Source: Jaapia argillacea MUCL 33604 (taxonomy: Eukaryota; Basidiomycota; Agaricomycetes; Jaapiales; Jaapiaceae). Taken from it: a DNA stretch of 64,000 nucleotides. Each line of letters opens with the position of its first letter. Positions within the stretch are counted from its first letter, which is position 1. The notes under the pieces are model-generated. The model was not told where the DNA came from, ran no database searches, and was given only the letters and a program-made list of their open reading frames with translations. The translations under genes and the position numbers were made by a program. This document shows, piece by piece, positions 462 through 61,330 of this stretch. Location of the stretch: the NCBI GenBank assembly GCA_000697665.1, contig KL197709.1, positions 597,877 through 661,876 on the forward strand, given 5' to 3'.

Positions 462-2345
462 ATGGTTTTCGGATTATTTACTCGCAAAGTCGTTCCGGCG
501 CCTACTCCCACCAAGGATGATTTCGTCGCACCAGTTCCCCCACCTCAAGAATCCTCGTCAGAATCGATTCAGCATCCACAAGAACGAGAACGAGAGCCTA
601 CGTATCCGCTGGGACTTCGTACACCGTCGCCTTCCGATATCGGGACGAGCACAGATCGTCAAATCGCGGACGCATCACCCGACCAACCCAGCACATCAAC
701 ACCAGAACCGACTCCGTCTCCCGACCCCATCGACCCAGAAGCCCTCATCACCCTTATCACCTCCATCCCTCCCAAAATCCTGCACACCTACATCCTCACT
801 CACCTCACTCACCTCGCCTCCCCCCCATCCCCAACCTCCTCCCTCCTCCTCCCACTAACAACTCCCTCAACCCAAGAAACCCTCCGTACCCTCCAAACAT
901 TCTTCTCCCTCCTCACTCCTCCCCCCGTACTCCACTGCATGAGATGTCATAAAGGGTATACGGAAGTCGAGAATGATGATAGGAGTTGTGTGTCACGTTC
1001 TTTTTACTTTTGATCATATGACACGTAGAACATTCCTTACTATTCCAGCCCATAGCATTAACGACTCTTCTGACTCAGCCATTGACTCTCTGCCAGTAGC
1101 ATTAAGATCTCAGTATGACGCCTTATGGTCCCACGGACTATTCTTAGGGTAGTCATGTAGTATATAAGCTTGTACCATCTTAATGCAAACGCCAGTCTTG
1201 AGCTGGTCTATTCCAAACCAGCCACTCTTGTGTGTCATCGGTCGACCTCATTACTCCTTGTTGCTACTCGCACTCCTCATCCAGCGCTGCTGCCAGTCAC
1301 ATCCCTGGTTGTTGTTTGTTGCTGACATTGTGTGGTGGCGCATGATGATGATAGTGCCGAGGTTGAGAGGGTGGGTGCTAGAGGTGGTTCGGGAGGAGGG
1401 AAAGGTGCGAGTGGGTCGGGGTATGAGACGCTTTGGGGGTGTTGTGGCAAGACTGTTGAAGGTGATGGTGATATGGGTCCTCCTGACGGTTGGTGTTACG
1501 AAGGCAGACATACCGTACGCCCCTTCCCTCCATCCCCCCATAATCATAATTAACTCTAATATGATATATCCCAGACCGATATGAAACGAGCCCGATTCCG
1601 CGCAGACTCGACACCAACAGACGACAAACTAGTAACCTGCTCCAAACTCCACTGCGCCCATATCCAAACATCCAACCTTGCGAATCCTTCATCGACATCA
1701 CCGCCCCCTCATGCTCGTATCGCGGATAACTACTCGCCAGGCCACCGTCCTCTCAAACGTCGACGTTCTCAGGTCCAATACCTCGAGGAGGATGAAGATG
1801 AGAGTGAGGGGGATAGTGATAGTGGGATGGAAGAGATCGTTGGTGGTGCGACGATAGGCAAAGGGAAGGGGAAGGGAAAAGGGAAGGAAGTGGTTAGGAA
1901 AGAGTCTAAAGCCAGTCTGGGCAAGTCAAAGTCGAAGAAGGGGAAAGGCAAAGAGAAAGCTCGGGAAGAAGATATCAATATGGATATCGACCAAGAAGAA
2001 GAAGTCCAAACCCAATTACCCGACCTCTCGGACGAAGAAGACTCTCAACCCATCCATTCCTCACCCGTCAAACCCCTCACACCACCATCGACGACGAAAC
2101 CCCTATCCAAATACCGACCCACGGCACCAAAGGCCAAATCCCTTCGATCGCTCAAGGAAGCTACCATCCCGACCTTGGCTGCCACACCACGACCGCCGAA
2201 ATCGACATCGAGAGGTTCGATAAAGAGTTCGATGAAACCCCGTTCGAGTACCGGCAAGCCTGTGTCGAAGGCTACTACTCTCCGACATGAGGAGAGTGAG
2301 AGGGAAGAAGGGAATGTTAGGAAGAAACGCAAGGTCGTTGCTTGA
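462..2345 (+). CDS. CHORD-like cysteine/histidine-rich nuclear protein, interrupted by a solo LTR
   Basis: Three coding blocks are visible: 462-990, 1333-1514 and 1575-2345, the last two joined by an intron with GTACGC and CCCAG borders. The first block starts MVFGLFTRK and has a Pro/Ser-rich spacer. Across the blocks runs CxxC, N, C, H, then LWGCC and a WCYEGRHT segment, which resembles the spacing of CHORD zinc-binding domains (C..C..N..C..H..W.CC..GC..GxH). The C-terminal third is low complexity, Lys/Glu/Ser rich, and ends with a KKRKVV nuclear-localisation-like motif, so a nuclear role is inferred. A 337-bp LTR sits between codons of the zinc-binding region. The host reading phase is the same on both sides of it, but an unspliced transcript would stop 23 bp into the LTR (TGA at 1011-1013). 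No splice pair removing the LTR in frame was found. The domain call is by pattern only. Confidence 0.55.
991..1327. mobile_element. Solo LTR of an LTR retrotransposon (337 bp), fossil
   Basis: The segment begins TGTCA and ends TGACA, giving the TG..CA ends and short inverted termini typical of LTRs. It is flanked by an exact 5-bp direct repeat, TTGTG, at 986-990 and 1328-1332, as left by retrotransposon integrase. A TATATAAG box at 1161-1168 fits an LTR promoter. No internal domain, primer-binding site or second LTR is next to it, so it is read as a solo LTR. It lies in the + strand coding region of the CHORD-like gene. The perfect target duplication suggests a fairly young insertion. The superfamily (Ty3 or Ty1) cannot be told from the LTR alone. 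Confidence 0.82.
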
Positions 2346-5944: not shown

Positions 5945-7640
5945 GATAGTAGGCAGACAGAACCGTTGTTCGACGTTGCCTATCGGTCGGAATGTCGTAA
6001 AGAAACTCCGGGCTGCTATATTTACATGGATATGAGGAAGCTGACAGTGTTGTTCAACATGAGAAAATAAAATGTAAAGCAAGATCTTGACATGGGAACA
6101 CAACCTGTGGCTGTACATACCGGCCTTGCTTCGATCCAATACAAGGACGCTGTGAACTTCATCTCAGGCTTAACAGAACAAACCTTGGCTACAAACATAT
6201 CGATCTAAATGCAACGCCACCATTATTATCCTCGGGATGCCATCACATTGATATGCCCCTGGCTTACGAGTCCCAGTTGCGGCTCCATTGCGGTCAGAGC
6301 ACGTAAACCACCGAGTGTTTTTGCTCCTAGCCTTCCAGTTTCGGATACCAGCAAAAAGGCAGAAACTAACTGGTGAGAAGGTATTTACCTCTGGCTTTGG
6401 TTTGCGAGTAATTGACGTCTCTCGAGATCAGGCTCAACTTGCGACAACCACTTTCGACCCTCCCAACGGTTTGACTACGTTTCCTATCCCCAGCTCCTTT
6501 TCCAACGACCATGTCTACTCTGGTATGCAAAGATAGCGCTACTGCTTTGCAATGCTTCCCCGCGGAGATTTGGAAGGCTATCTTCGCCTTTGCATGTCTC
6601 GACGATGGTACCACTGGGTGCTCGCTCGCACTGGTATCAACTTACATCGCGGAGGTATCACGAGAAGTTCGATATCAATCTGTTTCAATCAACGGATATT
6701 CGCAGCTGCTCGATTTGATATCTACACTGGAGCAAGTTCCTCCAGTTGCGCGCCGAGTCCGTCACCTTTTCGTAGGGGAGAAATTCGATCCAACATGTGC
6801 CATCCGGGCAACCTTCCCGGCTGTAATGTGTTCTAGGACTCGAATTGAGCTATCCTGCCCTAGTAAGCCACCTCTACTTCACAATTTTCAGTCAATCAAG
6901 TAACGCCAGCCCTTATAGGTGTTAAACTTTCCGCGGAATTTCATAACACAGTCGCGCATCTCCTCAGCCTCGTCTCTTCCACACTCGAAACCCTAACACT
7001 CATCATCCTCCCATGCGACCCAACTCCCTTCAGCATTTCCCCTCTTCCATCCCTCACAGAACTGTCAATTTACGGTGGTTGGACGGAGAGACCCATCTTC
7101 ACAAATGCATGCAAACTCACCCAAACAGCCACGCTATTCCCCTCCCTCCTTCGCCTCCACTTCTCCGGGACATTTTACCCCACCGCGATTTGTGTCACCC
7201 TCCAATCTACACCTTCCTTAACAGCTCTGCGATTGTCAGGCATAGAATACGTAACAGGCGTCCCTGCACTCATACAAATAATCCAAGGGCATCAGTCACC
7301 CTACTTCCGTCAAAATCTACTCCCCCATGCTCTACCTACCCTCCAGCTAATAATAATACAACCCGTGAGTCTTTCGGACGAGTCTCAACATGTGTTACCT
7401 TTTCCTATCCCCGGCCAGAGGTCCCACGTAGTTATGGAAAAGATATTGAAGGGAATTGAGCGGTGCAGTGGTGAGGTTGGGGCATTAAGGATTCGGGTAG
7501 TGAAGAAGAGAGATTGGAGTGGAGGTGACGTTGGTAGTGCAGGGCGGGAGGAGGCGATGACTCATTGGTTAGGGAGGTTGGCTGCCAGGCCAGAATGCTG
7601 GGAAGAAAGGGTTTGACAGAGGTCGGAGTACTTATGGGAA
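5945..7640 (+). repeat. Tandem duplication, copy 1 (F-box unit)
   Basis: This stretch and the one starting near 8335 match closely over about 1.7 kb, including non-coding sequence upstream of the F-box gene (the shared block begins around AGTAGGCAG) and the downstream flank after the stop codon. The copies differ by scattered substitutions and small indels. Confidence 0.8.
6511..7616 (+). CDS. F-box-like protein, tandem copy 1
   Basis: Exon 1 is 6511-6862 and exon 2 is 6919-7616; the intron has GTAAGC and TTATAG borders. Near residues 13-30 the protein reads LQCFPAEIWKAIFAFACLD, an F-box-like helix as used to bind Skp1 in SCF ubiquitin ligases. It continues with the LALVSTYIAEVSREVRYQSV segment typical of basidiomycete F-box proteins. 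A long substrate-side region with leucine-rich stretches such as TALRLSGIEY follows. The frame is open from ATG to stop. Its paralogue at 8911 is 85-90 percent similar by eye but carries a stop. The substrate is unknown; the F-box call rests on the N-terminal motif. Confidence 0.65.
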
Positions 7641-7680
7641 CGACCATCCAGACCCATTAGTCGGGAGAAAGAAGGGGGGG

Positions 7681-7745
7681 AGGGTATACCATGTTGTCGA
7701 ATCCGGGAGGTGTCAACTCTGTCATCATTGTCTGAGCGACTGTAG
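7681..7745 (-). pseudogene. Fragment of an ATG22 exon
   Basis: About 60 bp here match 3591-3658 of the ATG22 gene almost base for base, including the splice-site neighbourhood and the codons for MMAELTPPGFDNM. The orientation is the same as in the parent gene. It is too short to function. Its position between the two F-box copies marks the border of an ancestral ATG22 plus F-box tandem duplication. Confidence 0.8.
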
Positions 7746-7778
7746 TACATGTGCCTTGCGGGCCTACTCGGCTAGTCT

Positions 7779-8320
7779 GGCTACTCGGTCAATCGCATTT
7801 TGTGCCACACACAGCCTAAGATTTTTGGATCTCTTGGTACGGTCATATACTAGTAGTACATCTACGAGCCCTATGCCTCCCAAAATTCCACGCAAATTGG
7901 TCTGCAGTCCATGGAGTTAAATTGAATCTGAGCACGGCCGGTGGGTTTTCGGCCAGAATCACTAATTTCGGTCTCCATCCATCTTTGCCCACCCATCCAA
8001 GAGCATTCACCCTTTACCACTCAGGTTTTCTTTGGTATATTACCCTTATGGGCATTGAGGAACACACTTTAAACACAAGATACACCAAATATATAATCAT
8101 AGAGGGCTAGTTGCCCTTTGGCCGAGTAAGGGTGGCATTCCCCATTTTTCCACCCTCAGAAAAGAATTGCCCACTGTACAGCAAATACTTAGGCCACGGA
8201 GAAAGTTGAGGGGGGATTTTATGGCCAAGATAGATTACTTCGAGGTAATCCAAGTTTGAGAGGCAATGGACCGGGAGTTCGAACGGTAGACGGACAAAAC
8301 CACAAAGTGGCCGAGTAGCC
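7779..8320. mobile_element. Possible MITE-like non-autonomous DNA element
   Basis: The segment starts GGCTACTCGG and ends with the inverted CCGAGTAGCC, a 10-bp inverted terminal match, with looser similarity (TTTTGTG/CACAAA) just inside. It is about 540 bp, has no coding frame, and fills the gap between the ATG22 scrap and the second F-box unit. No clear target-site duplication is visible, so the call is weak; unrelated spacer DNA is an alternative. Confidence 0.25.
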
Positions 8321-8334
8321 GACAGGGCACAGTA

Positions 8335-23165: not shown

Positions 23166-23389
23166 TTTCTTTAACATGTCTCATGCGCAACTTTACACTA
23201 GATTTTCATTCGCGATATATGGAACTTGCGTATCTCTTTCCGATCCCTCTTTACCAAGCACCTTCGTCTTTTACTCTACGGCATTTGTACAATTTTGCAT
23301 CACTAGTAATACACCCTCTGCTCAGAGATAAAGAGGTCCAAATATAAAATCTCCGTCGTCAAACATGTCCTTCCCAAACCTCTGATCCT

Positions 23390-23635
23390 CGACAGGCCGA
23401 GGCTGAGACCAACGGCGTGCCGAAGAGACATACAAGTGTTGCTCGACTGACCAACATCTTCATCCCTGAACTTGGCGTTAGGTCCGGCCACAAGTTCCGA
23501 CGTAATCGGGTGGTTGGAATTCGGAACTATGGGGCCGAAACATCTACAAGCCTCTCCTGGAACAAAGTTGAACGGCAAGGAAAAGAGATCGCCTGGATAG
23601 GTGCCGAAGTGGGAGGAATGTTTGAAGGTAGATAA
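23390..23635 (+). pseudogene. Short DUF6593-like gene remnant inside the left arm
   Basis: A 72-codon open stretch includes LTNIFIPELGVRSGHKFRRN and VERQGKEIAWIGAE. The GKEIAWI segment recalls the IEW strand of DUF6593 proteins, such as the neighbour at 22.4 kb. No complete gene surrounds it. The right arm holds the same sequence in more decayed form, so it was duplicated together with the F-box gene. Low certainty about identity. Confidence 0.3.
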
Positions 23636-23786
23636 CTACTCGCCACTGGAATGAGCGCTATCAAGTGACGAGAGGATGGGTAGGCCGCGGTCGTGGGATG
23701 CCACAACATCCTCGACTGCTTGGAACAAAAATAATTCATGGTGTGCTGGAATTAAATATGATGGTCGACGGATCAGTTTGTTGGTA

Positions 23787-25025
23787 TCAAGTTTCGGGGA
23801 ATACCAAAACGCCATCCATGTCCTCTATCCGATATTGGCGCGAGGACAATGATTCCATTCCTTGAGAAAAGACCTTGGGATGATGATAGCGAATGTGATC
23901 GAGGAGACGACGATCCAAGAATCGGAGGAGCTGGAGGTTCGGCGCATTTAAGGTGCTTAGCCTGGCAAAAAATATTTTTGCTTGGTGTCTGCTAACGCTC
24001 TCCTCGGTGTACACCAAACCCAGATGGGCGGTGGTGGGCAACTCTGCCGGGAAGCCATTCATGAAACGGATATGTATAACCATCCTGCGGAGGTTTGGGC
24101 ACAAGGATGCGACGATGGGTACTGCATTTTCCAAGTGGCTTGTCCTGAGTGTGATGGAACTGAGCTGGTCCCTATACTGAGTGAGAAGAAGGCTTGGCAG
24201 CCCATTCCAACCGCTGATGGCGAGGTGATGGAGGGAGGGGAATGCGGGAACGTTTTTGGTGTCAAAATAAGGTGCCGATCTCCCTGCCATCTCCAATGAA
24301 ACCAAATAAGGGAGGTGGGGTCCCACCTGGAGTTGCGCTAGATTGTTGTGAGCCTCTGGCAGCTCAAGGATGCGGAGGTTAGGGGCTGCACGAAGGAGTT
24401 GATCCCATTCAGAGAGATCGGGGTACGGGGACCGTCTCCATCGAAGAACTCGCAGTGCGGGGCCGCAGCTGGCGGCCAGATCCCCAACGATAGATGAAGG
24501 CCATGGGGGATGGTAGTTGTCATCACGGGCGACGATGAGAATGGCCAGGTTGGGGAGGCAGTGGAAAATATCCGATAAGTGGGAGATTTCTTCGTCCGGC
24601 GGGATGCCTTCTGGTGCGTAATGAGTCTGACTCCTTCGAGCAAGTTCAAACCGCTTCGTATGCCATCCCAGTGAGGGCACACCATCTCCGTCAATCTCTG
24701 CCCTCCGCTTCGAATCCAATAGGTTGGTACGCAGAGACACTAAATCCCGTCGGTTGTTGATGATGATGGCCTCGTAAAGGAATGGTAAGGCCATCGAATG
24801 CCATGCCTTGCAGACGCGGACCAGAGCTCGCTTGGTCACGAGGGATTCGCGAAGAGATTCCACTACTTCCTGCTCCGACAAGGGAGGAGGCAGCTTGAAC
24901 GGGTCACGAATATCTGTGTCGAGGACTTGTGGGGAAGCGGCGGTCGAAAGTTGGAAGATTGCTAACCATATCTCAGCTGGTAGAGTAAAGTGATGGGAGG
25001 ACTTTCGCCTCCTCTTTCCACCCAT
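23787..25025 (-). CDS. F-box protein, inverted copy A (intronless, 412 aa)
   Basis: Intronless 412-residue frame starting MGGKRRRKSSHHFTLPAEIW, where FTLPAEIWLAIFQLSTAAS is the F-box-like helix. A second helix VTKRALVRVCKAWHSMALPF and YEAIIINNRRDLVSLRTNL follow, as usual in basidiomycete F-box proteins. The C-terminal two thirds have irregular leucine-rich units (LRILELPEAHNNL, LHHLAISGWN). Copy B at 27372 is highly similar throughout and also open, so both look functional. The arrangement is divergent around a third F-box gene. Expected role: substrate receptor of an SCF complex; substrate unknown. Confidence 0.72.
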   Translation of the reverse strand: MGGKRRRKSSHHFTLPAEIWLAIFQLSTAASPQVLDTDIRDPFKLPPPLSEQEVVESLRESLVTKRALVRVCKAWHSMALPFLYEAIIINNRRDLVSLRTNLLDSKRRAEIDGDGVPSLGWHTKRFELARRSQTHYAPEGIPPDEEISHLSDIFHCLPNLAILIVARDDNYHPPWPSSIVGDLAASCGPALRVLRWRRSPYPDLSEWDQLLRAAPNLRILELPEAHNNLAQLQVGPHLPYLVSLEMAGRSAPYFDTKNVPAFPSLHHLAISGWNGLPSLLLTQYRDQLSSITLRTSHLENAVPIVASLCPNLRRMVIHIRFMNGFPAELPTTAHLGLVYTEESVSRHQAKIFFARLSTLNAPNLQLLRFLDRRLLDHIRYHHPKVFSQGMESLSSRQYRIEDMDGVLVFPET

Positions 25026-25490
25026 CTCAAGCGAAGATATCCTAAGCTCGGGCTCATCAACTTGAAGGTTTGACGATGTTAGAGACGAGTCGCGTTTACC
25101 TATTCACTCGGATTAAGTATGCCACCTGAATCCCAGTCAGTCTTCACAGATGTTGCAGGATGGGGTGTGGTTGAACAGAAGATAAGTCGACAGTTTATGA
25201 GTTACAGTTTTACGTATATAAATAAAAACAATTATCAGAGTGGATAATCAGGATACACGACGGTATAAGTGATCGTCAGCCCTCTGAAGTGTTGTCCAAG
25301 TGACTTGCTCGGCCACCCAACTATGATGGCAACCTATCCCAGCCCTAACAGTCAACATACTCGTTGCCTCCTCGAGTCAAGTCCAACGGGCACGTATCCT
25401 AGAGGATGCTCGGCTGTGTCGAATCGGAGGAGACACATTGATTTAGTCGTAAGCAGAGAAACATGGTTGACATTCGCCTGACGCACCACC
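25026..25490. other. Intergenic region
   Basis: The first 60 bp belong to the inverted-repeat arm. The remainder shows an A/T-rich stretch with GTATATAAATAAA near 25214 and no gene. Confidence 0.4.
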
Positions 25491-27048: not shown

Positions 27049-27304
27049 CGGCGTAGTATTATCTCAGTTCCACGTAGTGTCGAGATGGTGGTCGTTCGGG
27101 GATGCTTATGGGCCAGGGATATCCAAATGTGATTACGGTATATAACAAGTAAATAGGCTATCTAAGCCTATCTTTCGACTATAAGTTACTTATGCTAAAT
27201 ATAACCAGATTCAACGACGCCACCCATCCTTGACCCATCCTGCGTTGAAACATTGTTGATGAAGACTGACTAGGATTTAGTTAGTGAACAGGTAAATTCG
27301 TCTC

Positions 27305-29055
27305 GTCCCTGAGATCTTCAAACCTTCCGGGTCAAGTTGATGAGTCCGACATCAGGATATCTTCGCTTACGATGGGTGGAAAGAGGAAGCGAAAGCACTC
27401 CCATAACTTTACTCTCCCAGCAGAGATATGGCCAACAATTTTCCAACTTTCGACCGTTTCTCCACAAGTCCTCGACACAGATATTCGTGATCCGTTCAAG
27501 CTGCCACCTCCCTTGTCGGAGCGGGAAGTAGTGGAATCTCTTCGCGAATCCCTCGTGACCAAGAGAGCCCTGGTCCGCGTATGCCAGGCCTGGCATTCGA
27601 TGGCCTCACCATTCCTTTACGAAGCCATCATCATCAACGACCGACGGGATCTAGTGTCTCTGCGTACCAACCTATTGGATTCGAAACGGAGGGCAGAGAT
27701 GGACGCCGATGGTGTGCCCTCACTGGGATGGCATACGAGGCGGTTTGAACTTGCTCGAAGGTGTCAGACTCATTACACACGAGAAGGCATCCCACCGGAC
27801 GAAGAAATCTCCCACTTATCGGATATTTTCCACTGCCTCCCCAATCTTGCCATTCTCATCATCGCCCAAGATAACGGGGACCATCCCCCATGGCCTCCAA
27901 TTATCGTTGCGGATCTGGCCGCGAGCTGTGGCCCCTCACTGCGAGTCCTTCGATGGAGACGGTACCCGTACCCCGATCTCTCTCAATGGGATCAGCTCCT
28001 TCGCGCAACCCCTAACCTCCGCATCCTTGAGCTACCAGCGGCTCACGAGGGTCTAGCGAAACTCCAGGTGGAGCCCCACCTACCCTGTTTGGTTTCATTG
28101 GAGATGCCAGGGAGATCAGGTCCTTATTTTGACACCAAAAATGATCCGGCATTCCCCTCTCTCCATCACCTCGCCATCAACGGTTGGAACGAGCCGCCCA
28201 GCCTTCTCCTTACTCTGTATAGGGACCAGCTCAGTTTGGTCACACTCATCACAAGCCATCTAGATCGTGTAACACCCATCGTCGCATCGATGTGTCCAAA
28301 CCTCGGCAGGATGGTTATTATTCTCCGTTTCATGGATTGTTTACCGGCAGAGCTGCCCACCACCACCCTTCTGGGGTTGGTGTACGTCGAGGAGAGTGTT
28401 GGCAGAAGCCAAGCAAAAGCATTTTTTGCCAGGCTAGGCACTTTGAACGCACCGAACCTTCAGCTCCTCCGATTCTTGGATCGTAGTCTCCTCGATCACA
28501 TTCGATATCATCATCCCAAGGTCTTTTCTCAAGGAATGGGATTATTGTCCTCGCGCCAGTATCGGATAGAGGACATGGATGGCGTCCTGGTGCTCCCTGA
28601 AACTTGATGCCCGCAAACTGTTCCGCCCACCATCATATTTAATTCCAGTGCACCATGAACCACCTTTGTCCCAAACAGCAGAGGATGTTGCGGTATCATA
28701 CAACCCTGCCCATACCCTGGTCACTTAAAAGCGCCGATTCCAGTTGCGATCGCGGCGTGGTAGCCATCTACCTTCAAACACTCCCTCGACGTCAACTCAT
28801 ATCCAGGCGATCCCTTTTCCTTTACGATCAACTTGTTCCAGCAGAGACTTGTAGATATTTTCGGTCCCATAGCTTCCAACCACCTGATTACTTCGACACT
28901 AGTAGCTAGACCTGACGCTAAGTTCAGGGATGCAGATGTTGGTCAGTAGACCGACATTTGTATGTCTCTTCGGCACGCCGCTGGACTCAGCGTCCCCCTG
29001 TAGAGGCTCGGACATTTGGGAAGGACATGGCCGACGATTGTGATTTAATATTTGG
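27305..29055 (+). repeat. Inverted duplication, right arm
   Basis: Reverse-complement partner of 23340-25085. Coding parts are more alike than the 3' flank, which has diverged by many substitutions. Confidence 0.8.
27372..28607 (+). CDS. F-box protein, inverted copy B (intronless, 411 aa)
   Basis: Starts MGGKRKRKHSHNFTLPAEIW and aligns over its full length with copy A on the opposite strand, with one residue fewer after QLSTVSPQ. The F-box-like helix, the RALVRVCQAWHSMASPF segment and the leucine-rich tail are all kept, and the frame is open. Differences cluster in the C-terminal part (LVTLITSHLDRVTPIV versus SITLRTSHLENAVPIV), as expected for diverging substrate receptors. It is transcribed away from the F-box/LRR gene toward the convergent superoxide dismutase gene. 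Confidence 0.72.
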   Translation: MGGKRKRKHSHNFTLPAEIWPTIFQLSTVSPQVLDTDIRDPFKLPPPLSEREVVESLRESLVTKRALVRVCQAWHSMASPFLYEAIIINDRRDLVSLRTNLLDSKRRAEMDADGVPSLGWHTRRFELARRCQTHYTREGIPPDEEISHLSDIFHCLPNLAILIIAQDNGDHPPWPPIIVADLAASCGPSLRVLRWRRYPYPDLSQWDQLLRATPNLRILELPAAHEGLAKLQVEPHLPCLVSLEMPGRSGPYFDTKNDPAFPSLHHLAINGWNEPPSLLLTLYRDQLSLVTLITSHLDRVTPIVASMCPNLGRMVIILRFMDCLPAELPTTTLLGLVYVEESVGRSQAKAFFARLGTLNAPNLQLLRFLDRSLLDHIRYHHPKVFSQGMGLLSSRQYRIEDMDGVLVLPET

Positions 29056-31861: not shown

Positions 31862-31934
31862 TTCCCGCTAGCCGATTTGAACGACTGACCTCGTCATTAC
31901 TAGTGACGCGCTCTACCAACTGAGCTAAGAGGGA
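31862..31934 (-). tRNA. tRNA-Thr (AGT anticodon)
   Basis: On the - strand a 73-base cloverleaf can be drawn: D arm TAGCTCAGTTGGTAGAGC, anticodon stem CGTCA/TGACG with loop CTAGTAA (anticodon AGT, Thr), and T arm AGTCG TTCAAAT CGGCT. The acceptor stem TCCCTCT/AGCGGGA pairs except at the fifth pair, which is T opposite C. There is no intron. A- and B-box sequences (TAGCTCAGTTGG and GTTCAAATC) are intact. The single mismatch leaves a small chance of a weakened copy. Confidence 0.88.
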
Positions 31935-59099: not shown

Positions 59100-59300
59100 G
59101 GCAGTTTGGTTTCGAACTGCCACTTGTTTATTCTTCTCGGTATGCATGACCCTTCCAGCTCCAGTTTCACCGTATTCGTTGGGACGAGAAGTTTGATGTT
59201 CTCTCCTGATGGTAGCGACAGCCACACAAAGACAAGACCATTAAACGTCAAGAGACCCACGTCAAACCTTGGCGCTCTGTCCATTGGCCTCGGTCAATAC
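59100..59300. repeat. Direct repeat copy 2
   Basis: Second copy of 58395-58600. It overlaps the extreme 3' end of the LARP7-like gene, whose TAA-side flank therefore derives in part from the repeat. Confidence 0.75.
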
Positions 59301-61330
59301 TTTTTTCTCTTCCTCTTCCGTTTCGCCTTGTCCTCGTCACCATCTTCAATATGACGCCCTCCATCGGCCACAGCGCCTCGCAAAGCTCTCTCCACAGCGG
59401 CTCTCCGAATCTTCTCAGGCACCTTGTCCCAGTACAGGTCCTCTTTCTTGCCGGTCACTGCTTCGACTTCGATTGGCTGTCCCTCTTGACCCTTACTGGT
59501 GCTTGAGGTCGAGAGGAGTTTGGCACCTTCTGCATCGAGACCATCACGTTGTATAATTGGAAAGGTGGCGAAGTGCTCGACAAGCAGGGAATTGTGATCG
59601 GGTGTGGCTACGCGGAGGTAACACTGAAAACGACGGCGTGAACAATCAGCTGGCGGCAATAAGAAAAGATATCGAAAAGGACGTACGGAATCCATTCCTT
59701 TGGTAAAATCAACATAATCCAACCCATCCGTGTCACCACCCCCGGCCTTCGACTCGTCAGAACCATTCTGTGCAGAAGCAGTTAGAGTTCTGGAGAACAG
59801 TGTTCTGAGCGTTGTCTTGTTCGTTGAGGGATGGACATTGCGAACAAAGAGAAGGCAATTGGGTGGATATGGTGATACGATGGTCAGCGGCTGAGATCCT
59901 GAACCGTTCAAGGTTGAAGGAGGTGGCAGCGGGGTTTGTTTGCGAGTTTCTTGTCGAGTCTGGGATGGCGGCGCCTTCTCCGCTGCGTCTTCCACCGAGC
60001 GCTTGCGCTTCGTAGATCCTTGACGACCATCCTCCTCTCCGTCGTCGCGGGTCCGACTACCTGGTTGTTGCTTGGTCGAAGGTTGAGACTGGGAATGACT
60101 GTGCGAATCGAAAGAGGCTGCTTCATCCAACAACCGCTGTCGATAGGCGAGGTACTCATCCTTAAGCTCGTCCCACTTCCTTTTGCTCAGCGTCCGAAAT
60201 CCCAAGATTCGAGCTTCAACTCGCAATTCTTCCTCCCTAGAGTCGTCTCCATAGGCCTCGGCATCAACGGATTCGTCGTCGTCGTCCTCTTCGTCTAAGC
60301 TTGAACCTTTTCCTTTCAAGTCTGCCACGCTACCTGTAGGAACCGGGGGGTGACGAATTGGCTTCCAAGGCCATTCTTCTAAGATTCGATCCACGTCTTC
60401 GGTCCGAAAGAGGGTAACAAGTGCGAAACCTTTACATTTCGGTTTGTCGCCTGGTTTATCGAGGTGGTGCGCGGGTAATATAATGTTCTGGACGGCAGGG
60501 AGGTGACTGTCGGTTGAGGAGAGAATGATAGTGGCGAAACGATATATGCCTGGGATCGTTCGATAGGCTGCTGGTATGTTTTCCTGCAAGGGTGATTACT
60601 ACTGGGCAGCCGGAGATTCAAGACGGCGGGAAGACGTACGAGAGAAACACATCGTTTCTCCCAAAAGTCCCTTGACGTGCCCCCCACTCTCTCAACCATA
60701 TCCACCCAGTCCGATCTCCTAACTTCATGCCCACCCAGAACGTCTCTAACATTCCCTACTTCCTTCTTATACCAATTGGCTCGCGAGGGAGAGGATACGA
60801 GCATTCGTACCTCCAGTGCACCCACGTCGCTGGTAAGAGCTCGAATAGACTTGACGGCTAAGAGCTCACTTGGGTTGGATATGTGAGCAAAGTAAGGAGA
60901 ATGCTGGAATATGAAACTAAGAGGGATGACTTTGGTTCCATCAGAGGTTCCTCGAAGCGGATGGTAAGACGAATGAACACGTACATCCTTCAGAATTGGA
61001 TTCGATAGTTCGCCTGAGGTCTGGTTCAGACCACAACGCGTAGTCCGACAGGGCAAGGGATATAAGAATCCCATAGTCATCCTGTGGAATGGACATATCC
61101 GTTTCTTTCTCTTTCCCTTTACCCCATCCCCCTGGCTGGGTCCCATAATGTTGCGCTTCCCGTGGTTCGAACCCGTCAGCCTCTTCACTTGCGCCGATGG
61201 AGGACTTGGGTGATTCGACGGTCTCGCGTGAGGATACGACAGTGGCCCCAGCAGGCAGACGTCGCGTCCTTCCCTGGTTTTGGCTAGCTTTCCCGAGTTT
61301 ACGAGGAACGAATTGGAAGCCTGTGGACAT
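59294..61330 (-). CDS. La-related protein 7 / Pof8-like RNA-binding protein
   Basis: Family members bind telomerase RNA or U6/7SK snRNA and protect 3' ends. Start MSTGFQFVPRKLGKASQNQG. DYALWSEPDLRRTIESNSEG splices (GTACGT..CAAAG) to FIPLSFIFQHSPYF, the core of a La motif. SALEVR-like strand and DFWEKR follow, then ENIPAAYRTIPGIYRFATII (spliced via GTACGT..TGCAG) as an RRM-like unit, an acidic and basic linker, and a C-terminal xRRM: NCLLFVRNVHPSTNKTTLRT, YVDFTKGMDS to CYLRVATPDHNS, then GKKEDLYWDKVPEKIRRAA. The LYWxKvPEKiRR box is typical of La/LARP7 second RRMs. It ends in a Lys/Arg-rich nuclear tail. Confidence 0.72.

Follow-up and report, generated by a model that had tools for sequence, protein, structure and literature searches.

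A Tf1-type Ty3/gypsy LTR in the first coding exon of a single-copy Jaapia argillacea gene, beside a scaffold gap that may hold the rest of the element

The 64,000-nucleotide stretch of Jaapia argillacea MUCL 33604 DNA analysed here (the window; contig KL197709.1, positions 597,877 to 661,876) carries, at positions 991–1327 on the plus strand, the LTR of a Tf1-type Ty3/gypsy retrotransposon belonging to a 337-bp subfamily. The identity of this segment as an LTR, based on its match to a genomic family and on its fixed ends, is close to certain. We give slightly better than even odds (a probability of about 0.52) to the reading that the site holds a full-length element of ~8.1 kb, a Tf1-type insertion that interrupts a single-copy gene in its first coding exon. 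The LTR family, the LTR ends, the target duplication, the interrupted host frame with its stop codon and the duplicated flank around an upstream N run can all be read directly from the assembly. Retrotransposon insertions in genes are common, and the finding is an ordinary one.

The LTR starts with TGTCACGTTC and ends with GTTGCTGACA (TGTCA...TGACA; 337 bp). It is bordered by TTGTG both on the left (986–990) and on the right (1328–1332); with the LTR ends fixed, such a 5-bp flank match has a chance probability of ~1/1024. Target duplications of 5 bp are of the kind produced by integrases. A TATA-like box of the LTR promoter, recognized as a motif only and found also in the aligned LTRs of the family, lies at 1161–1166 on the plus strand. 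The 11-nt self-primer AGTCTTGAGCT at 1194–1204 (plus strand), an exact complement of the primer binding site (PBS), begins 33 nt downstream of this box and likely marks the 5' end of the element RNA (start of R). The first-pass annotation of this locus had described an LTR with TG..CA termini in a coding exon, a perfect 5-bp duplication and an internal TATA box, and each of these features was recovered, the coding exon as an apparent one and the LTR proving in addition to belong to a genomic repeat family.

The assembly (43.7 Mb in 95 contigs) was searched for this family, as the first-pass annotation had proposed, and relatives were found: the window LTR matches at least 76 pieces at no fewer than 40 scored places, the window counted, the 40 being a lower bound among 86 LTR candidates. 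This repeat status weighs more than the 5-bp flank match in calling the 991–1327 segment real. The window LTR is 98% identical to the copy on C23 and 95% identical to that on C10. A subfamily-specific segment of 75 bp is matched at 74–75 bases at four loci (window, C23, C10 and C8) and at only 37–43 bases at seven further loci; 19 other aligned LTRs do not possess it, and 17 of these are 294 bp long. Sequence was read out at 34 of the 40 scored places, of which C23 and C8 are readable at one end, leaving 32; the 3' LTR on C17 brings the set read at both ends to 33. All 33, the window LTR among them, start with TGTCAC and end with CTGACA; 15 are accompanied by a PBS, 15 by a polypurine tract and 3 by neither. 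The six remaining scored places (two on C26, C4:246136, C5:1606461, C33:184390 and C21:369517) adjoin interior matches by coordinates and therefore do not look solo.

Two elements with 294-bp LTRs are free of gaps (8,015 bp on C44 and 8,105 bp on C33), as is a 7,959-bp element on C17 whose LTRs measure 293 and 243 bp and whose outer flanks are mismatched. The distance from LTR start to LTR start ranges from 7,129 to 8,325 in six elements with N runs located between the LTRs, compared with 7,721 (C44) and 7,811 (C33), a spread which implies that the assembly gives gap sizes only approximately. In all three other members of the window subfamily (C8, C10 and C23), N runs cut into, interrupt or abut the copy. 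The C10 copy is full length and flanked by GGGTG at either end; we considered that it might be a mirror-image artefact, with its 3' flank repeated in the 960 bp past the LTR, and rejected this since these 960 bp are element interior starting with the PBS.

A spliced intron, or some other non-repeat insertion, is a highly improbable reading of the segment. A donor-like GTGTGT does occur at 988, at the insertion junction, but the segment matches a multi-copy LTR family with identical ends, and none of the splice pairs tried (GT consensus donors at 941–1340, [CT]AG acceptors at 1001–1500, intron length at least 45) gave an in-phase, stop-free frame. The repeat family and the failed splice pairs both speak against an ordinary intron, and the view that this is a repeat insertion, also taken in the first-pass annotation, stands.

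Judged from its sequence, the element is of the Ty3/gypsy class and of the Tf1 kind, the domains having been read on the C44 relative and not on the window copy. Seven frame pieces of the C44 element yielded Pfam matches to zf-CCHC, RVP_2, RVT_1, RT_RNaseH, Integrase_H2C2, SH3_Tf2-1 and rve (the last at 30.2 bits, under the curated cut-off of 32.6), and the pol order on this element is protease, reverse transcriptase, RNase H, integrase. The integrase SH3 domain is of the Tf2-1 type (PF24626, E 2.2e-13). A chromodomain at the end of the integrase is a feature of chromoviruses; no chromodomain family was matched in the seven C44 pieces up to E 0.01, the stretch from the frame end to the 3' LTR lying outside this search, and we do not assign the element to the chromoviruses. 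Priming is predicted to follow the Tf1 mode. The PBS located 2 nt downstream of the C10 5' LTR is an exact 11-nt complement of the LTR self-primer; TTAGCTCAAGACT comes after the LTR in 15 of the 15 5' LTRs read, and AGCTCAAGACT and the AGTCTTGAGCT of 1194–1204 are exactly complementary. Further counts of primer and PBS were pre-selected on TTAG or TTAGCTC and so add little. Fifteen 3' LTRs are preceded by a polypurine tract.

In the portion of PMC7175516 dealing with Tf1, the self-primer is given as the ‘first 11 bases’. Tf1 and Tf2 of Schizosaccharomyces pombe (Tf1/sushi group) resemble the present family, with its 5-bp target duplications, in the Ty3/gypsy domains with a Tf2-1-type integrase SH3 domain (read on C44) and in the 11-nt complementarity between LTR and PBS; distinctive here are the LTR lengths (294 or 337 bp) and the element size of ~8 kb. 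The excerpted account of Tj1 from Schizosaccharomyces japonicus (PMC4600332) is that of a Gypsy/Ty3 element, proposed to be self-primed, with a 244-bp LTR and a 5-bp duplication. It thus resembles the window family in class, proposed priming and duplication length; Tj1, however, measures 5,003 bp (against ~8 kb here) and, according to the title of that paper, targets sites upstream of pol III genes, whereas the window copy interrupts a coding exon. Another fungal LTR retrotransposon for which self-priming as in Tf1/sushi was proposed is, according to PMC7175516, Tcn1 of Cryptococcus neoformans, likened here by description only.

The perfect target duplication had been taken in the first-pass annotation as the sign of a young insertion, a conclusion that the family does not sustain. 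Duplications of 5 bp are perfect in 9 out of 10 full-length-looking copies (C53, C44, C73, C33, C6, C4, C5, C40 and C10), the tenth (C17) having mismatched TTCAA/CACAA. In the eight of these nine in which both LTRs are complete, the LTR pairs mismatch at 0 to 10 of 294 positions (maximum 3.4%), so that one element with a perfect duplication has LTRs differing at 10 of 294 sites. The 5-bp duplication consequently gives no date, and a perfect one is unfit as a clock.

The surroundings of the window proved informative. On scaffold C1, a 7,822-base N run that begins directly after a first TTGTG ends exactly at window base 1, and positions 1–990 of the window (plus strand) are an exact duplicate (100%) of the 990 bases preceding that run, probably an unmerged contig overlap. 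The edges of the N run are thus also the edges of the duplicate, with the 990 bases on its left identical to the 990 on its right, a coincidence at both edges that unmerged overlapping contigs produce. Since the window opens where the N run ends, the first-pass annotation was blind to both the upstream gap and the duplicate. When the duplicate is dropped, the insert amounts to 7,822 + 337 = 8,159 bp, whereas retaining it gives 9,149 bp, ~1 kb too long and a poorer fit; by arithmetic, gap-free interiors combined with two 337-bp LTRs would come to 8,097–8,191 bp. Dropping the duplicate was our own choice, which makes the agreement in size to some extent post hoc. Among the 12 N runs with both edges read, 1 (the run at the window edge, 990 bases) has edges that overlap exactly over a long stretch; elsewhere, C21 has a 40-base exact overlap and C17 a displaced overlap of 99.3%. 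Duplication of flanks as an assembly-wide habit was considered and rejected: the 5' flank of C8 (800 bp) occurs once, and the 3' flank of C23 has a relative of 87% identity ~6 kb further on and no second exact copy. N runs occur at irregular positions across the copies of the family, which suggests that the one at the window edge is an ordinary sized assembly gap rather than a stretch masked with N.

Three of the 33 LTRs read at both ends have neither PBS nor polypurine tract alongside: that of the window, one on C17 and C40:232360. The last has TACAA on both sides and no N within the 1.1 kb read. Its 5' flank (C40:231900–232300) recurs on C40 at 95% and 92% identity, the repeats ending at the insertion point; they carry no family LTR among the scored places and may therefore be paralogous empty sites. 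At C17:439651–449035, a solo-form LTR (TTCAA twice) is neighboured by an element that looks complete but has TTCAA as its left and CACAA as its right flank. Beyond a 31-base N run, the 5' flank of the solo-form LTR is found again, next to a 5' LTR with interior, and the arrangement is either a misjoin or the product of recombination between elements. For the window, C17 cuts both ways: joins made through such LTRs may be false, and so may the scaffold gap. The C17 3' LTR has lost ~50 bp, the self-primer 11-mer included. The right flank of this element, CACAA, is identical to the duplication on the left of the C36 LTR; a cross-join of C17 and C36 was nevertheless rejected and the match treated as chance, because the C36 LTR is without the variants common to the three C17 LTRs.

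In the full-length reading, a self-priming Ty3/gypsy element would have entered the first coding exon and duplicated TTGTG, its 5' LTR and interior would fall in the N run upstream of the window, and two near-identical LTRs would have been merged in the contig that opens the window, which accordingly reads 5' flank, one LTR, 3' flank. The full-length state, the LTR merge and read-out transcription are the parts that we infer. This reading is favoured because identical 990-bp flanks bracket the N run while the 3' half of the gene is present once, and because C8, C10 and C23, of the same subfamily, are all affected by N runs and C10 is full length; the closeness of 8,159 bp to the gap-free sizes of 7,959–8,105 bp (elements with shorter LTRs) makes full length somewhat likelier than a settled solo LTR. 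Against it, the contiguous sequence reads as flank–LTR–flank and its duplications match, and C40:232360 offers a cleaner LTR in solo form from the same family. Moreover, C17 indicates that the scaffolding around this family may be wrong and the window gap spurious. The first-pass annotation had called the segment a solo LTR, which in the available part of PMC8969392 is defined as one LTR with intact target duplications left by LTR–LTR recombination. The window has this form, that is, a single LTR in contiguous sequence with matching duplications, but has an element-sized N run and a duplicated flank alongside, and the solo state, unproven, is more likely wrong than right. A true solo LTR, with the upstream N run and duplicate being a scaffolding error, is on balance unlikely. 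Such an error would be in keeping with the possibly chimeric scaffolding at C17, where the element is flanked by TTCAA at its left end and CACAA at its right, and C40:232360 provides another solo-form copy with no N in the stretch read. A plain solo locus would, however, leave unexplained why two copies of one flank are separated by 7.8 kb of N, and the form occurs in only 3 of the 33 LTRs read at both ends, two of the three having an N run and a duplicated flank next to them.

Less probable still is that the sequenced DNA contained both forms, some nuclei or cells having the full-length element and others the solo LTR, and that the two were placed in tandem on the scaffold. The layout flank–[N run]–flank–LTR–3' half is what such a tandem would look like, and on C17 the solo-form LTR and the junction of 5' LTR and PBS share their 5' flank (861 aligned positions, 0 mismatches, 1 gap). 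On the other hand, the duplicated window flank is 100% identical across 990 bp, one 8-kb stretch of the window that was tested has no second near-identical copy or haplotype in the assembly, the mismatched outer flanks of the second C17 element indicate a misjoin or inter-element recombination, and the solo-form LTR of C17 has a 3' flank present in one copy. If both forms did coexist, the culture would record LTR–LTR excision within a gene in the form of a standing polymorphism, possibly one that separates nuclei, and the site would offer a simple PCR assay for such excision. For annotation, the lesson is that a window starting at a scaffold gap can mimic a perfect solo LTR where there may be a complete element; an assembly artefact yielding false solo LTRs is not stated in the portions of PMC6265445 and PMC9674265 at hand.

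The host gene is cut whether the element is solo or full length, because its frame stops 7 codons past the junction. Its first coding stretch, modelled by eye, runs on the plus strand from an ATG at 462 to the insertion at 990; the frame then meets a stop codon in the LTR at 1011–1013 (plus strand), 183 codons from the ATG, giving on translation a truncated product of 183 aa. Beyond the insertion, the exon resumes with a Cys-rich piece (1333–1514), followed by a putative 60-bp intron of phase 0 at 1515–1574 (GTACGC...CAG, proposed by eye) and by the last coding stretch (1575–2345), which contains an in-frame ATG at 1581; all three lie on the plus strand. The frame is open from 1333 to the putative intron and then to the stop ending at 2345, and both pieces of this 3' part are single copy in the genome. 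The insertion does not fall between codons, as had been claimed, but within a Val codon, whose first base (990) it separates from the other two (1333–1334). The further claim that the host phase continues is right in part: the LTR plus one duplication amounts to 342 bp (3 x 114) and keeps the phase, but the stop at 1011–1013 interrupts the frame.

A zinc-binding domain had also been assigned to the host protein and is at present an eye-read candidate function. The three host pieces, searched separately (which weakens the test), matched 0 Pfam families up to E 5, and a solved-structure search with the Cys-rich piece returned 0 matches up to E 10; the zinc-binding reading therefore depends on eye-read Cys/His spacing. 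In each of the three exon pieces, the proposed frame had the top codon-usage score, by a small margin (0.106 versus −0.062, 0.073 versus 0.020 and 0.143 versus −0.085); the score was trained on eight ORFs of the window, several without a family match, had no held-out control and was applied to frames picked because they were open. With the frame cut, the full-length host protein would be lost. The LTR promoter may drive RNA, starting near 1194, through the 3' half of the gene, and such read-out RNA could yield a C-terminal product, for example from the ATG at 1581.

Elsewhere in the window, an inverted repeat of ~1.77 kb with 85% identity is formed by positions 23338–25108 and 27283–29055. Its arms contain open frames of ~411 aa on opposite strands (23787–25025 minus, 27372–28607 plus), both without a match in Pfam. 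A tRNA-Thr (AGT) lies at 31862–31934 on the minus strand. The open frame at 59294–60589, also on the minus strand, encodes an xRRM domain (PF19977, 6.6e-38), which occurs in La-related and telomerase proteins.
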